DNA from: Thermospira aquatica
GTDB lineage: Bacteria > Spirochaetota > Brevinematia > Brevinematales > Thermospiraceae
DNA length: 64,000 nucleotides
Direction of reading: 5' to 3'
Assembly (NCBI RefSeq): GCF_023525255.1
Contig: NZ_CP073355.1
Coordinates: 1 to 64,000 of the forward strand
Shown: piece by piece, positions 9,393 to 38,620 of the stretch
Position numbering within the stretch: position 1 is the first letter of the stretch
Layout of the letters: every line of letters starts with the position of its first letter
Translations under genes and position numbers: made by a program
Notes under the pieces: generated by a model
Told to the model about the DNA's origin: nothing
Seen by the model: the letters and a program-made list of their open reading frames with translations, nothing else
Database searches by the model: none

Positions 9393-10325
9393 TCAGGAAG
9401 CAAGATGAACCGCAGTCGGTTCCAGATTAAGAAGGGTAGAAACCTGATAGGAATATCCTTCACTGAACACAGGCTGAAGTTCTGTCGTCTTCACAGCGTA
9501 TTCTGAGAGAACTCGTACAAAATCTACATCCAGAGCATGTCCACCCTTGTAAGAAACCAAGAAACCCTCAAGATCGTATGGTAAAAGAGCCAATGCTCCC
9601 AGTAAATCAAGAATCTTGTGCCTTACTGGCTCATCATCATAGCGTGCCCCATTCACAGAACGGTTTTCCCTGCGGCTATAGACATGAACATTCTCAAAAC
9701 CACCACCAAGTACAAGCCCATTCTTTTGATAATAGTCAAGATCCTCTACAAAACCAAATGTCCTTGCCTGGAAAATAGAGGAAAAAGCCTCTTCTTCAAC
9801 CATATTTAGCTGAAAGGTCTGGGTTCCAATAGGGGAATTGGGAAAAGAAATAGTATAATTAATCTTCAACCCATAAAAAGGCAACCCCACAAGAAACTTA
9901 TCTTCTTTCGTAACCCAGAGAGACTCCATAAGACGAAGCGTCGGTCGATACGCATCTTGCTCGATAACCCCGGCCTTCATAAAAGCCTCCACAAAAGGAC
10001 CCGCACTCCCATCCATAATGGGCATTTCAGGGCCTGTAAACTCGAGAATAGCATTGGATATCCCCAGGCCATAGAGTGCAGCCATCATATGCTCCACTGT
10101 TTTATAAGAGACCACACCGTCCGATACGGTGATATTATTCCTCGTATCGGTAATATAATCAATCGTATAAGGCAGCACCCTGTCCTTGCCTTTATATCTC
10201 GTCACAAAAACCAATCCTGTATTCTCAGAAGCCGGATGAACCTCTATTGTGCTTGTTTCGCCGGTATGGAGCCCGATCCCTTCAAACCGAACAGAAGAAC
10301 GAAGTGTCTTTTGTTTTCTTTTCAT
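9393..10325 (-). CDS. lpxC: UDP-3-O-acyl-N-acetylglucosamine deacetylase
   Basis: Zinc deacetylase, the committed step of lipid A synthesis; its presence says the organism has a lipid A type outer membrane. 310 aa. Zinc ligands and active-site residues are visible: VEHMMAAL, RHKILDLLG (His and Asp) and GGHALDVDF (general-base His). The opening RSSVRFEGIGLHTGE and MPIMDGSAGPFV are typical. AAGGAGT lies 5 bp before the ATG. It is alone between its own terminator and its own promoter, unlike the common layout near ftsZ, and the promoter looks sigma-54 dependent (10350-10363). Confidence 0.95.
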   Translation of the reverse strand: MKRKQKTLRSSVRFEGIGLHTGETSTIEVHPASENTGLVFVTRYKGKDRVLPYTIDYITDTRNNITVSDGVVSYKTVEHMMAALYGLGISNAILEFTGPEMPIMDGSAGPFVEAFMKAGVIEQDAYRPTLRLMESLWVTKEDKFLVGLPFYGLKINYTISFPNSPIGTQTFQLNMVEEEAFSSIFQARTFGFVEDLDYYQKNGLVLGGGFENVHVYSRRENRSVNGARYDDEPVRHKILDLLGALALLPYDLEGFLVSYKGGHALDVDFVRVLSEYAVKTTELQPVFSEGYSYQVSTLLNLEPTAVHLAS

Positions 10326-10349
10326 ACGAAACTCCTTACTAATTAAATA

Positions 10350-10363
10350 GCAAATTTTATGCC
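10350..10363 (-). promoter_or_regulatory. Sigma-54-type -24/-12 promoter before lpxC
   Basis: On the minus strand TGGCATA-N4-TTGCT is read, with GG (complement of 10362-10363) and GC (10350-10351) exactly 10 bp apart, as sigma-54 requires. Predicted start near 10338 leaves a leader of about 13 nt, just enough to hold the AAGGAGT. No good -10 hexamer lies at a correct distance for a sigma-70 reading. The palindrome TTTGTATACAAA farther upstream (about 10432-10443) could be an operator. Confidence 0.5.
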
Positions 10364-10453
10364 AAAAATAAAAATTTATAATTTATTGTTAGAATTAAAC
10401 TTAAAAGAAAAACAAAAACCTATCGGGATATTTTGTATACAAAAAAATACAAC

Positions 10454-11014
10454 CTAAAAAAGATATGTAGACAAAACCGATTTCAAATATTGGTACGCTT
10501 CTTCAAGATCTCTATTTTCAATTTGTACACTATAAAAATCTGCTTTTTTCATTTCTTCAGAAGCTTGTTTAAGCCTTCTCTCGATAGTCTCGGGATCGTC
10601 ACTGCAGCGTTTCTGAATCCTTTTTCTCAGTTCCTCGATAGAAGGCGGTTTAATAAAAACCAGAAAAGCCTCAGGAAAGGCTTTCTTGATACTCATTCCT
10701 CCCTGAACATCAACATCCAGTAAGGCTGTCTTACCCTCTGACATGATCTGCTCTAACTCAGACTTAAGCGTACCATAATAGTTACCGTACACCTCAGCCC
10801 ATTCCGCAAATTCTCCATTCTCCTTTGCTTTTTCAAAATCTTCTCTCGTATAAAAATAGTAGTCTACTCCATGAACCTCACCCGGTCGCGGTTTTCTCGT
10901 CGTTGCCGAAACAGAAAAAGCGAGTCTCTCAGGAAACTCTGCTAAAAGTCTTTTATAAAGTGTGGTCTTGCCTACACCAGATGGGCCTGAAATTATCACA
11001 ATCCCTGTTTTCAT
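10454..11014 (-). CDS. gmk: Guanylate kinase
   Basis: Phosphorylates GMP to GDP. 186 aa. The P-loop GPSGVGKTTL at the N-terminus, the GMP-binding SVSATTRKPRPGEVHGVDYYF and the lid region RIQKRCSDDPETIERRL are intact. It overlaps yicC by ATGA and is the last gene of the rpmF-to-gmk operon. The yicC-gmk pair is a common bacterial arrangement. Confidence 0.95.
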   Translation of the reverse strand: MKTGIVIISGPSGVGKTTLYKRLLAEFPERLAFSVSATTRKPRPGEVHGVDYYFYTREDFEKAKENGEFAEWAEVYGNYYGTLKSELEQIMSEGKTALLDVDVQGGMSIKKAFPEAFLVFIKPPSIEELRKRIQKRCSDDPETIERRLKQASEEMKKADFYSVQIENRDLEEAYQYLKSVLSTYLF

Positions 11015-18646: not shown

Positions 18647-21600
18647 TTAACGAAGATACAGTCCATCGACACCTATCTTTCCCGGGCCATTGAGAACATA
18701 GATACCAGCAGAATTCGCCTTCACTGTAAAGGTAATTGTACCGTTATTCACAGTAATAACATTGCCTGTAACAGCATCACGATAGGTGCCATTCCGCACC
18801 CCTGAAACGGTTATCGTTTGCTGACTCCCTATAGTAAGCCCCACCACCACATAACTCTCGCCGTTGTTGTAATCACGAACAAAACTCATTCCACTTCCCC
18901 ACTCGTTGACCTGTTGCATCGGTGCCTTCTGAAGAGCGGGAATGGCACGCCGAATCTGATTGAGGCGCTTGATATGCTGATAAAGGGGATGAGACTTTGT
19001 TGTCGCAATCTGAGACGAAGTAAGATTATTGCCATAATATGCTCTTCCTGTTTGGTCAATCGTCATCGTGGCGTTTATAATATCCTGAGGAGCTCCCTTC
19101 TGAAACTCTATTTCCTCACCGTAGTAGAGACACGGTATGCCACGAATCGTCCAGAGAAGATTGTATGCAGCCGCTGCCATCCATTGTTCACCTTTAAAAC
19201 GGTAGGTAAAATCATTATCCGGCCCCACATCATGATTTTGGAGGAAGGTCACCAGCTTGGTGGCATCACCATACACCCAATCCATAGCCAGAATCCCGCC
19301 AATACCACTAAACGATCCTTTGCTCACATTGTCTCTGAAAGTGGAAAAGAGAGAAAAGTCCAGCACCGAAAAACCAGAATCCCCTCCCGAATTTGGATTG
19401 TTCTCGTCATTTCCAAGACGGGTGTACCACCAGGGACGAAGTCGAGAAGGAGCATTATCCCAGCCGAGATTCCCCCATCCTGTTCCCTTGACCAGGTTCT
19501 CACCAAAAACAAAGAGATCAGGCTTGTGAGCCTTCCAGCGGTTCACAAAACCGTTCAGAAGACTGTTTCTCTCCACATGTTTCACAGTATCCAGACGGAT
19601 GGCATCTACACCCATATCAAGGTACTGGTAGATGGCTTCATTAATGTAATTTCGAACCACTTCACTCTCTGTATTGAGATCGATACAATCCCCTGCCATA
19701 CTGGTTACCCAGAGTCTTTCAGGGTTTTCCCAATCACCCCCCTGGACATAGCCAGCCTGATGATACCAGTCATTCACAGTCGTTCCCGATACTGTAGAGC
19801 CCGTAAGAGGATAAAAGGTACCAAAGAATTTTCCACCATCATTGATGTTGAGTAGAGCTCCCGTGGTCTGATCGTAGATCACATTTGTCCCTCGTGGATC
19901 GCTCGTCTGGTATGCCCTAAACCAGGCTGGGGCAACAGGATTGTCGTTATCCTCTCGATAAGGGTGTTTATAATCCCCCAGGTTGTAAAGATAGGGAGAG
20001 GTTGCCCAGTTTGTTGAAGTTACTGGCACCCCCTGCGGACGGAAGTACTTGATAGGATACCGTGTTAACCATACCTTGCCACGAATACCGTAACTTGAAG
20101 AATGGTTCACCACCACATCCATCACGATCTTCAGTCCTTTTGCATGAGCCGCGTTGATCAAATCCTGGAAGGTTGCGCCAGGGGATTCCAATCTAGGATC
20201 CACCCTCGTCCAGTCATAAATATGATACCCATGATAATCCAGGCCGCTACGGTTCTCAAAAGGAGGGGTAATCCAGATAGCCGTAAAACCAAGATCTTTA
20301 ATATAATCCAACTGCTGGATCAACCCTTTAAAATCACCCCGCCAATGAGGATCTCCCGGCTTGATCCGATCCCGATTATAGTAATTGTTGTTTGGATCAC
20401 CGTCGTAGAAACGAGTGGTAATGAGAAAATAAATTGTTTCCTCTCTAAAATCCACTCCTGAAGGCTGACTCCCCACTACCAAACTCACGCTATCTTCCGC
20501 AGTATTTCCCGCGGTATTGCTCACCTGGACCCGAACCGTTTTGGTTCCGCTACTACTAAAGGTAAGAGAAATCGCCGCCGTAGGTAAAAACGCTGTATCC
20601 CAGGTTCCATTTCCATCTTTATCCCATCGGAAACGAAGCTGGGAGAAACTATCCTTCTCATCCCAGGAGTTGGAAGCATTGAAATAAAAGAGTGTCGAAG
20701 TTGTCCCACTTGCGGGGCTTGCCGTAAGAATAGCTGTCGGAATACGCAGCATACGGAAGACCACCGAGTTCGTCGTTGAATACAGCCCAGCCGTATCCTT
20801 AGCATACACAAAGACTCGATTGGTCCCCTCGGGAAGATCATATATCACACTCCAGTTGGAGCTATTGGCATCCACAAGAACAAAACTCCCATTGTTCGTC
20901 TTAATATAGACTCCAGCCACACCCCGGTTGTCCCAAACATATCCTTGAATGGTGATCGTGGGCGTTTTAGCTACCGCATTGTTTGTTGGTGCCACAATGG
21001 TGACCACCGGACGAACCGTATCCGGACCATTGGGATTATTGGTTGTCATTGTCCCATTGGATAACCAGACCTCTTTATACGAAGTACGGTAATCCATATT
21101 ATTATTATTGTCCCACGTGCTCCCGTTGTTAAAGACAAACGTCAGCACATTACTGTACATTGGAATCTCTCTCACATACCAGTTTCCCCCTTCAGCTGTC
21201 ATAGGCTGCCCGGGAACAGTCGTCCACCCCAATCCATTGTTATAATGTATATTAACCGTCGACCATCCTGTTCTGAAGTAATGCACCTTGATACTGTTGG
21301 TATTGGTCACAAGAGCAAGAGACCTCACCACCAGTTTTTCCTCATTCTCATAGTAAATAAACTCATACTTGCCACTGGCTGGAATCGAAAGGGAGATATT
21401 TCCACCACCCTGGGCAAGTGACGTCACCGTCTGCGGTAACGAAGTGCCACTCGAGGACCCAAGACCACGGTTGATATCCCACGCATTGTTCATCACAAGC
21501 TTGTAGGATACCGAACCAGCCGAAAGATAAATCACTCCCTGCCAGACCTGATTGGATACCAGGGTCAGGGCCGGAGCCGTGGTTGCCGACCAACTCCCCA

Positions 21601-22132
21601 ATTCCGCTGTACTCCCCGGTACACGTACTGACGTATACTGAGAAACAAAATTCCCACCACCAGAGGCAACCGTCACCGTGAGCTTCTCCTGACTTTCAAA
21701 GTACGTAAAAGTATAATACCCGTTCGAAGGGACTGAAAGAGAGATGTTTCCACCACCCTGGGCAAGTGACGTCACCGTCTGCGGTAACGAAGTGCCACTC
21801 GACGACCCAAGACCACGGTTGATATCCCACGCATTGTTCATCACAAGCTTGTAGGATACCGAACCAGCCGAAAGATAAATCACTCCCTGCCAGACCTGAT
21901 TGGATACCAGGGTCAGGGCCGGAGCCGTGGTTGCCGACCAGTTCGAAAGTTCAGGCGTACTCCCTGTGACACGAACCACAGAATACCCGGAAGAAAACGT
22001 TGCATAGGCTATAGCCGGAGCCTTTGCTGCCTCTTCGTTTGCCTCCTTTACCTCCAGTGGAGTTAACTGACAACCAAAAAACAACAATAACAAAACACCC
22101 AGAAAAAATCCCACCAACCATCGGCTTTTCAT
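18647..22132 (-). CDS. Multidomain GH13 alpha-amylase-type lipoprotein
   Basis: 1161-aa secreted lipoprotein that should bind and cleave starch or related alpha-glucans at the cell surface. Signal peptide with lipobox LFFGC (lipidated Cys21). Then two almost identical beta-sandwich modules (about 41-156 and 161-272), a CBM26-like module (about 279-370, SIKVHYFRTGWSTVNIHYNN), an Ig-like module (about 375-461), a PKD-like module (about 464-553), and a GH13 barrel (about 563-1150). GH13 residues: Asp848 in DAIRLDTV (nucleophile), Glu878 in FGENL (acid/base), Asp968 in LQNHDV. The exact substrate cannot be read. AGGAGGT precedes the ATG. Monocistronic, with its own promoter and terminator. The C-terminal VDGLYLR closes right at the terminator. 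Confidence 0.9.
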   Translation of the reverse strand: MKSRWLVGFFLGVLLLLFFGCQLTPLEVKEANEEAAKAPAIAYATFSSGYSVVRVTGSTPELSNWSATTAPALTLVSNQVWQGVIYLSAGSVSYKLVMNNAWDINRGLGSSSGTSLPQTVTSLAQGGGNISLSVPSNGYYTFTYFESQEKLTVTVASGGGNFVSQYTSVRVPGSTAELGSWSATTAPALTLVSNQVWQGVIYLSAGSVSYKLVMNNAWDINRGLGSSSGTSLPQTVTSLAQGGGNISLSIPASGKYEFIYYENEEKLVVRSLALVTNTNSIKVHYFRTGWSTVNIHYNNGLGWTTVPGQPMTAEGGNWYVREIPMYSNVLTFVFNNGSTWDNNNNMDYRTSYKEVWLSNGTMTTNNPNGPDTVRPVVTIVAPTNNAVAKTPTITIQGYVWDNRGVAGVYIKTNNGSFVLVDANSSNWSVIYDLPEGTNRVFVYAKDTAGLYSTTNSVVFRMLRIPTAILTASPASGTTSTLFYFNASNSWDEKDSFSQLRFRWDKDGNGTWDTAFLPTAAISLTFSSSGTKTVRVQVSNTAGNTAEDSVSLVVGSQPSGVDFREETIYFLITTRFYDGDPNNNYYNRDRIKPGDPHWRGDFKGLIQQLDYIKDLGFTAIWITPPFENRSGLDYHGYHIYDWTRVDPRLESPGATFQDLINAAHAKGLKIVMDVVVNHSSSYGIRGKVWLTRYPIKYFRPQGVPVTSTNWATSPYLYNLGDYKHPYREDNDNPVAPAWFRAYQTSDPRGTNVIYDQTTGALLNINDGGKFFGTFYPLTGSTVSGTTVNDWYHQAGYVQGGDWENPERLWVTSMAGDCIDLNTESEVVRNYINEAIYQYLDMGVDAIRLDTVKHVERNSLLNGFVNRWKAHKPDLFVFGENLVKGTGWGNLGWDNAPSRLRPWWYTRLGNDENNPNSGGDSGFSVLDFSLFSTFRDNVSKGSFSGIGGILAMDWVYGDATKLVTFLQNHDVGPDNDFTYRFKGEQWMAAAAYNLLWTIRGIPCLYYGEEIEFQKGAPQDIINATMTIDQTGRAYYGNNLTSSQIATTKSHPLYQHIKRLNQIRRAIPALQKAPMQQVNEWGSGMSFVRDYNNGESYVVVGLTIGSQQTITVSGVRNGTYRDAVTGNVITVNNGTITFTVKANSAGIYVLNGPGKIGVDGLYLR

Positions 22133-22156: not shown

Positions 22157-22185
22157 TTTATAAATATTTGCAAAAAATATGCCAA
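22157..22185 (-). promoter_or_regulatory. Amylase promoter, sigma-54-like and sigma-70-like readings overlap
   Basis: Minus strand TGGCATA-N4-TTGCA (GG complement of 22182-22183, GC at 22170-22171, 10 bp apart) is a perfect -24/-12 element, giving a leader of about 26 nt. The same stretch can be read as TTGGCA (22180-22185)-17 bp-TATAAA (22157-22162). The 13-mer TATTTTTGGCATA is identical in the lpxC promoter. Confidence 0.5.
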
Positions 22186-22577
22186 AAATATATTCTTTTA
22201 TAATATTCTAACTGTAGAATATATGAAAAATTAAAATAAAGACTCTTCAAAAACGGAAACTTTTAAAAAATCAATTGCACAAAAGTTTTACATTCTGCTT
22301 TTTTTTAAAAGGGCACTTTGCACTCTTTTCATTTGCACTCTTTTCATAAAGAAGAGACGCTCTTCCTAAAAAATTTTCTCCACAATCTGTTTCCCTCTAA
22401 AGTTTTTCAATATTATTTATCATCCTTACAAGAAGAAAAAGCACTTCTCACATTTTTATCATCAAAAGAGAGAACGCTTTCTCAACACGTTGGCAAAATC
22501 TCCCCGCCAACAAAAAATGCAAAAAATAGCATTTTTTTCCAGGTTATGGTATACTATAATTCAATTTTATCATACCA
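22186..22577. other. Gene-free AT-rich stretch before the phosphohexomutase
   Basis: No gene seen. It holds a direct 15-bp duplication (TTTGCACTCTTTTCA, 22317-22331 and 22332-22346) and an AT-rich stem-loop AAAAATGC/GCATTTTT near 22514-22537 followed by Ts. TATACT and TATAAT (22550-22560) are candidate -10 boxes for the next gene, but no good -35 is visible. Confidence 0.5.
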
Positions 22578-37698: not shown

Positions 37699-38620
37699 TT
37701 AATACTCCTCCTCTAAATACACATCCATTACCCAGCCTTTTATTGTATCTCCTTTTTTATCCTTTATCCCTGTATCTACATAAAGCCAGTATCCCTTCCT
37801 TCTTACACCATCTGAATTTTCTATTTCATACCCAACAACTAACCAATCACTTATCTTTACCCTTGTCCCTCTCTTTAATTGAATTATCACTGCTGAATTA
37901 GTATCCGGCTTTTCAAGAAGATTAACATCGTCACCATATATATAGTAGTATCCCTCACGCTGCCCGGATTCTCATACTCCGCCCATTTCGGAAATTTATT
38001 CTTGTCGGTTATTACCTTTGTACTATAAGCAAATGGAACTCGTAGTTTACCTTTTTCATCGTAATAGAATATATCAACATTATTACCTAACATGATTATA
38101 TTTTTGAATTTATAAATTTTCCTTTCAAACTTTTATTATCAACATTGTATACAAGATTTTTAGTTATTATCCTATAGGTACCATTTGAGTATATCCGATA
38201 ATAAACAACTCCTCCTTCTTCATCAAAGGCTTCTATGAACATTTCCTGTATCTTTTTTACCGGTTTAAAATCGTTCTTACCAGCTAAATGCCTTCTCTCA
38301 GTCCAACCTTGGATTGTTAAAACTTTCCAACCATTATCAGTTAGAACCATCTCCTGATTACTACTCATTCCAGAATCAATATAGAACCACTCAGTAACAT
38401 TTGAATTACTTGCCATTATAATATTCGTCTTACCTAAAATATTAACACATTGAAGATAAGGTAACTGCATTAGTTTCATTGAGTTAGCACTTGGCTGTTC
38501 AAATAATTCCACTTCTCTATCTATAACATAAACCGAATTACTTCCAAAAGGTTTTATTTCAATTGAATAAACACCATTAGAAATGACACATATTACCAGT
38601 ATGAATAATAAAGAGCGCAT
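37699..38620 (-). pseudogene. SH3b-like secreted protein, copy B, frameshifted
   Basis: Signal peptide MRSLLFILVICVISNGVYS, a first SH3b-like part (VIDREVELFEQPSANSMKLMQL ... EWFYIDSG), then a one-base loss in an A-run near 38098 and a second shift near 37945, after which the C-terminal SH3b reads LLEKPDTNSAVIIQLKRGTRVKIS ... WLYVDTGIKDKKGDTIKGW. Homologous throughout to the intact 29720-30601 gene but clearly diverged. Confidence 0.75.

Follow-up and report, generated by a model that had tools for sequence, protein, structure and literature searches.

We consider it highly probable, on the comparisons described below, that lpxC of Thermospira aquatica is transcribed from a sigma-54 promoter, that this promoter is gated by an activator, most likely through an upstream box, which probably drives a sigma factor gene (sigA) as well, and that an amylase gene with a sigma-54 promoter of its own is probably under another activator. 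The window, i.e. the whole stretch of DNA analysed (64,000 nt), comprises bases 1-64000 of a genome assembled as a single contig of 2,515,453 bases. The features of the window relevant to this proposal are as follows.

9393..10325, minus strand: lpxC, UDP-3-O-acyl-GlcNAc deacetylase, 310 aa (PF03331, TIGR00325)
10338, minus strand: predicted lpxC transcription start, placed by spacing alone, 12 nt past the C of the -12 element
10349..10364, minus strand: predicted sigma-54 (-24/-12) promoter of lpxC, TGGCATA-N4-TTGCT (motif and conservation)
10433..10442: palindrome TTGTATACAA, a candidate site for an upstream activator; the GTATAC within it starts 76 nt before -24
10454..11014, minus strand: gmk (guanylate kinase), 128 nt 5' of lpxC, same strand
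18647..22132, minus strand: GH13 alpha-amylase, 1161 aa, with CBM20, CBM26 and X25 modules (profile matches)
22169..22184, minus strand: predicted sigma-54 (-24/-12) promoter of the amylase, TGGCATA-N4-TTGCA (motif and conservation)
22276-22280, 22319-22323, 22334-22338: three half-boxes (GTGCA/TGCAC) on the 5' side of the amylase promoter, a candidate for an activator box of another class

The LpxC product matches PF03331 with 273 bits and TIGR00325 above its cut-off; the only named relatives found, from Brevinematales MAGs, are 83-84% identical to it. The modules of the amylase are starch-binding, and its N terminus is lipobox-like by eye, as in a lipoprotein.

The pattern TGGCATA-N4-TTGCW has two matches in the window, at 10349-10364 and 22169-22184 on the minus strand, and no others; in 100 dinucleotide shuffles of the window the mean was 0.01 matches and no shuffle had two. 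Two exact -24/-12 motifs had been claimed at 10350-10363 and 22170-22183 in a reading of the letters alone (the sequence-only reading), and both intervals fall within the 16-mers that we observed. The 13-mer which that reading described as common to the two sites, TATTTTTGGCATA, was located at both (10358-10370 and 22178-22190, minus strand). In the lpxC site the GG occupies 10363-10362 and the GC 10351-10350; the C of the -12 element sits 25 nt 5' of the ATG, which is at 10325. A transcript starting near 10338 would have a 13-nt leader containing AAGGAG. At gathering thresholds no Rfam family matched anywhere in the window, so lpxC is not preceded by a riboswitch or leader RNA of a known family.

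When a sigma-70-like pair of boxes was sought in 10250-10700, none was found versus 0.8 expected, in agreement with the earlier remark that lpxC has no acceptable sigma-70 boxes; five weak pairs of this kind flank the amylase site, versus 2.0 expected. No terminator was found between gmk and lpxC, the sole terminator-like stem lying inside gmk. Since gmk is co-directional, close by and not separated from lpxC by a terminator, read-through into lpxC is possible, and sigma-54 may not be the sole supply of lpxC.

The presence of rpoN, on which the sequence-only reading had made its proposal depend, was established by profile search of the genome (RpoN DNA-binding domain, 194 bits). The genome has seven matches to Sigma54_activat, of which four are strong (~244-252 bits), each with an HTH_8 domain:

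activator A: 346 aa, without sensor domain, in the gene order rpoN-fapA-A
activator B: 695 aa, with two GAF domains
activator C: 451 aa, with a receiver domain, a histidine kinase gene lying directly upstream
activator D: 459 aa, with a receiver domain

A second, broken RpoN match with two TGA stops was seen in another member of the genus (G011:C8:106676-106993).

Genome-wide, TGGCN7TTGCW has 43 sites versus 13 for the reversed pattern; for the strict pattern TGGCAYRN4TTGCW the numbers are 14 versus 2 in this genome and 92 versus 16 across the 13 genomes of the order. Ten of the 14 strict sites were read as intergenic and four as lying within reading frames, and a clear gene stands behind eight of the ten. 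The targets are lpxC, the 1161-aa amylase, a second amylase of 479 aa, sigA, sigB, amtB-glnK, two hsp20 genes and a gene for an HD-GYP/GAF protein; the sites at 312842 and 1090440 are without a clear target. Perfect sites precede RpoS-like sigma factor genes, at both sigA and sigB. The products of these two genes belong to the sigma-70 family, and as their best NCBIfam model, rpoS_proteo, is matched below its cut-off, we call them RpoS/RpoH-like only. The site at 1090440-1090455 (L020, L138) lies ~140 nt past a gene that looks GH13-like by eye; a GC-rich hairpin and T-run follow ~50 nt further on, no gene intervening, and the site possibly serves a short untranslated RNA.

Within the order LpxC is encoded in 9 of the 13 genomes, the four f2 genomes being without it. 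All eight lpxC genes with a readable 5' end carry the strict TGGCAYR-N4-TTGCW pattern 33-47 nt before the start, versus a shuffle mean of 0.01 and no match to the reversed pattern. The lpxC gene of G005 is broken at the contig end; a site there lies 610 nt after lpxB, versus 619-634 nt in three f3 relatives, and because of this matching spacing G005 is probably the ninth case. The gene 5' of lpxC varies (gmk in f1; in f3 and f4 a ruvX-like gene, named by eye, with lpxB just before it), and the surroundings of the site have diverged among relatives in the order. The site of the 1161-aa amylase is kept in all three members of the genus (this genome, G011 and G012). Strict sites were also observed at orthologues of other targets: sigA in G011 and G012, sigB in G011, hsp20 in G011, G012 and G010, and amtB in several genomes. 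Such conservation makes sigma-54 control of lpxC very likely and gives strong support to the predicted control of the amylase by the same factor.

The f2 genomes (G001-G004) encode LpxB in 4/4 though LpxC in none. Strict sites precede groEL in G001, groES in 4/4 and grpE in 4/4, with dnaK next in L107 (genes named by eye; loci L105, L117 and L129 in G001, L106 and L118 in G002, L107 and L119 in G003, L108 and L120 in G004). Each f2 genome has a single activator, of group D, ending before the HTH_8 domain in 4/4. Judged by these features, f2 has a predicted sigma-54 heat-shock regulon whose activator is without a DNA-binding domain.

Among 247 genomes of the phylum, LpxC was found in 95 and RpoN in 242. 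We scanned 68 lpxC upstream regions from outside the order for the looser pattern GGYAYN5TTGC at a promoter-like place. The loose site was present at 28 of the 68 genes, confined to families f9 (7/7), f28 (14/15, L104 being the lone gene without it), f21 (3/3), f8 (3/3) and f26 (1/1); the other families had 0/39, including f14 (0/11) and f20 (0/8). It is therefore missing at 40 of the 68, including all three from f5, the one further family of the same class among those read. For the shuffle test those regions were taken whose gene starts had been mapped, 56 in all (8 from the order and 48 from elsewhere); of the 48, 25 had the loose motif, versus a shuffle mean of 0.17 and a maximum of 2 in 300 shuffles, and the reversed pattern was at 0 of the 56. 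On the LpxC tree, a quick tree with long branches that supports no statement on the root (the ancestral promoter), the site label needs 5 changes versus 18 with shuffled labels. From the family counts and the tree, the predicted site is old in several lineages and absent from others that possess RpoN. Loss of rpoN as an explanation of the site-less families was rejected, rpoN being in 242 of the 247 genomes. One genome with the site (AGGTATAAAAATTGCT), G045, gave no RpoN match (this genome is 89% complete).

Upstream of the lpxC and sigA promoters of the three genus members GTATAC occurs within 150 nt of -24 at 6/6 promoters (13 copies), versus 0/19 at the remaining sigma-54 promoters in these genomes; the highest count in 2000 shuffles was 2/6. 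Its distance to -24, counted from the first base of the box, is 75-77 nt at each of the three lpxC genes (G011 has a further copy, at 87 nt) and 87-147 nt at sigA. This genome (G000) has 8 copies of the full palindrome TTGTATACAA, one at lpxC, two at sigA and the others mostly in reading frames; G011 has 4, one at lpxC and two at sigA; and G012 has 3, one at sigA, the lpxC gene of G012 keeping the GTATAC core only. Two copies of the palindrome, at 38145-38154 of the window and 422424-422433 of the genome, lie inside near-identical versions of one reading frame (MRSLLFIL..., 174 and 307 aa), a duplicated locus. TTGTATACAA was not found at lpxC in f3 or f4, and a box common to lpxC and sigA, sought there via shared 9-mers, gave nothing convincing.

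The amylase promoters have a box of another class. GTGCA was found at 8/9 amylase promoters, 1/1 HD-GYP promoter, 1/6 lpxC and sigA promoters and 0/9 of the rest in the genus; comparing lpxC with the amylase, GTATAC is at 3/3 versus 0/9 and GTGCA at 0/3 versus 8/9. As the boxes differ, two different inputs are likely, and lpxC and the amylase probably share the sigma factor and have different activators. By eye, the hsp20 (L141) and sigB (L143) promoters of the genus have similar boxes resembling TGTRTCA/TGAYACA, which suggests a separate activator for these genes, responding to heat or stress. A box class seen by eye only, resembling TTTGCCTA-TAGGCAAA, lies near the amtB, gltB-like and glutamine synthetase genes in G010 (L191, L196, L214, L217).

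Activators A, B and C are present in 9/9 genomes with LpxC and in 0/4 without it (f2); D is in all genomes except G005 (73% complete). Naming the lpxC activator by distribution fails, as A, B and C fit the LpxC pattern equally. The gene of B is divergent from a type III glutamine-synthetase-like gene (by eye; L135), which carries a site itself in G011 and in G012, so B is probably the nitrogen activator. The recognition helix of C differs between f1 and f3/f4, as does the box, while that of A is identical. We prefer C over A for lpxC only because the helix of C changes along with the box; this points weakly to C as the candidate acting at lpxC and to A as the one acting at the GTGCA box. In f3 and f4 the sensorless A lies directly 3' of a lipoprotein-like gene (380-445 aa, ...SCTQEHL...; L299, L301, L302, L303, L305, L306), whose product is a possible envelope sensor.

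In the mechanism that we infer for promoter use, activator and signal, RpoN polymerase would wait in a closed complex at the lpxC promoter (10349-10364), which would be melted by an upstream-bound activator (bEBP) whose most likely binding site is TTGTATACAA (10433-10442); LpxC, and hence lipid A synthesis, would be raised upon a signal. As lpxC and sigA carry the same box, in the genus one activator probably drives both lpxC and this RpoS/RpoH-like sigma factor gene. The amylase, via its own sigma-54 promoter and a different box, would probably answer to another activator.

That the lpxC motif is a chance match without function is hardly credible: single sites can be due to chance, since over the 13 genomes the strict pattern has 16 matches even when reversed, versus 92 in its proper form, but correctly placed sites at 8/8 genes in the order and 25/48 outside stand against expectations of 0.01 and 0.17. 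A far more serious alternative, to which we give only slightly less than an even chance, is that lpxC has a dual supply, sigma-70 providing basal transcription, by read-through from the gmk side or from a non-consensus promoter, and sigma-54 only adding inducible expression. Its case is made by the co-directional gmk and the terminator-free 128-nt gap, by the arrangement in f3 and f4 of lpxB, the ruvX-like gene and lpxC on the same strand, and by the general circumstance that lpxC is essential in many bacteria and rpoN often dispensable. Less easily reconciled with a dual supply are the 0 sigma-70-like pairs in the gmk-lpxC gap and the retention of the sigma-54 site although the remaining sequence of the gap has diverged.

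The sequence-only reading had gone further, suggesting that lpxC and the amylase form one envelope or surface regulon, i.e. are under the same activator. Its first component, sigma-54 control of both genes, gains support from conservation, and both sites are indeed perfect, share the 13-mer and are conserved in the genus. The joint regulon is nevertheless improbable: a common upstream activator box was sought and is absent, lpxC having GTATAC and the amylase GTGCA, and the sigma-54 targets extend to amtB-glnK, hsp20, two RpoS/RpoH-like sigma factors and the HD-GYP protein. Somewhat less improbable, yet still unlikely, is that an ordinary repressor (e.g. GntR-like) governs lpxC and sigA through TTGTATACAA, which would then be its operator and not an enhancer. 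Short perfect palindromes in one to four copies, such as this one, are also bound by repressors, and the box is not retained in f3 and f4; on the other hand, the copies are 75-147 nt before -24 and 10-31 nt apart, too distant to cover the promoter, and 75-147 nt upstream of -24 is the usual enhancer range.

In Desulfovibrio vulgaris Hildenborough the NtrC-type regulator DVU2934 has lpxC (DVU2917) as its single target (PMC3333781), and a paper on the sigma-54 regulome lists DVU2934, with GAFTGA, under lipid A biosynthesis (PMC4641369). The present case resembles that system in the probable dependence of lpxC on sigma-54 and an activator. The DVU2934 operon also encodes a kinase and an HD-GYP regulator; C, here a candidate regulator only, has a kinase gene directly upstream and no adjoining HD-GYP gene. 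Apart from Hildenborough, just two strains were reported to have the DVU2934 motif at lpxC, D. vulgaris Miyazaki and D. desulfuricans G20, whereas the site described here spans families of another phylum; and, unlike in the DVU2934 case, lpxC shares its box with a sigma factor gene and so is probably not the sole target. Among spirochaetes, a sigma-54 promoter at Leptospira interrogans lpxC, of the same class as here, is a software prediction only (Hu et al. 2017, cited in the review PMC12655853); in the start-site paper on Leptospira the sigma-54 sites are those of amtB and two lipoprotein genes, and 'lpxC' is absent from its main text (PMC5243855). Borrelia burgdorferi likewise has RpoN above an RpoS-like factor, in the Rrp2-RpoN-RpoS cascade (PMC12655853); unlike in Borrelia, two RpoS/RpoH-like genes have sigma-54 sites here, and lpxC has the box of one of them.

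Francke et al. 2011 described sigma-54 as the controller of the bacterial exterior, with zero matches to 'lpx', 'lipid A' or 'spirochaet' in the main text (PMC3162934). In Escherichia coli the same committed step is controlled by proteolysis of LpxC through LapB/YejM-FtsH, not transcriptionally; 'promoter' and 'rpoN' are absent from the main text of the review concerned (PMC12444477). In Rhodobacter sphaeroides without NtrYX the lpxC transcript is raised, an effect judged indirect (PMC7240162). The description of such control of lpxC as unusual is therefore only partly right, given the D. vulgaris precedent (PMC3333781, PMC4641369) and the Leptospira prediction (PMC12655853). Searches of mostly open-access full text turned up no study that deals with lpxC promoters in Brevinematales or with how far these are conserved among the families of spirochaetes. 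A sigma-54-linked lpxC is of a known kind; the breadth across spirochaete families and the pairing with a sigma factor gene are new.

A stronger form of our proposal, which we hold tentatively and consider rather doubtful, is that lpxC in the genus is transcribed solely by sigma-54 and that one activator, via TTGTATACAA, starts both lpxC and the RpoS/RpoH-like sigma factor gene, as a switchable LPS programme with another form in relatives. If true, outer-membrane remodelling and a general stress state would be switched on as one unit, and RpoN would be required for lipid A, perhaps for life. The conserved sigma-54 promoter itself implies that several spirochaete families would switch lpxC at the level of transcription, upon a signal. 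It offers a direct test of the need for RpoN in making the outer membrane, and of whether an RpoS-like stress state is coupled to LPS synthesis.
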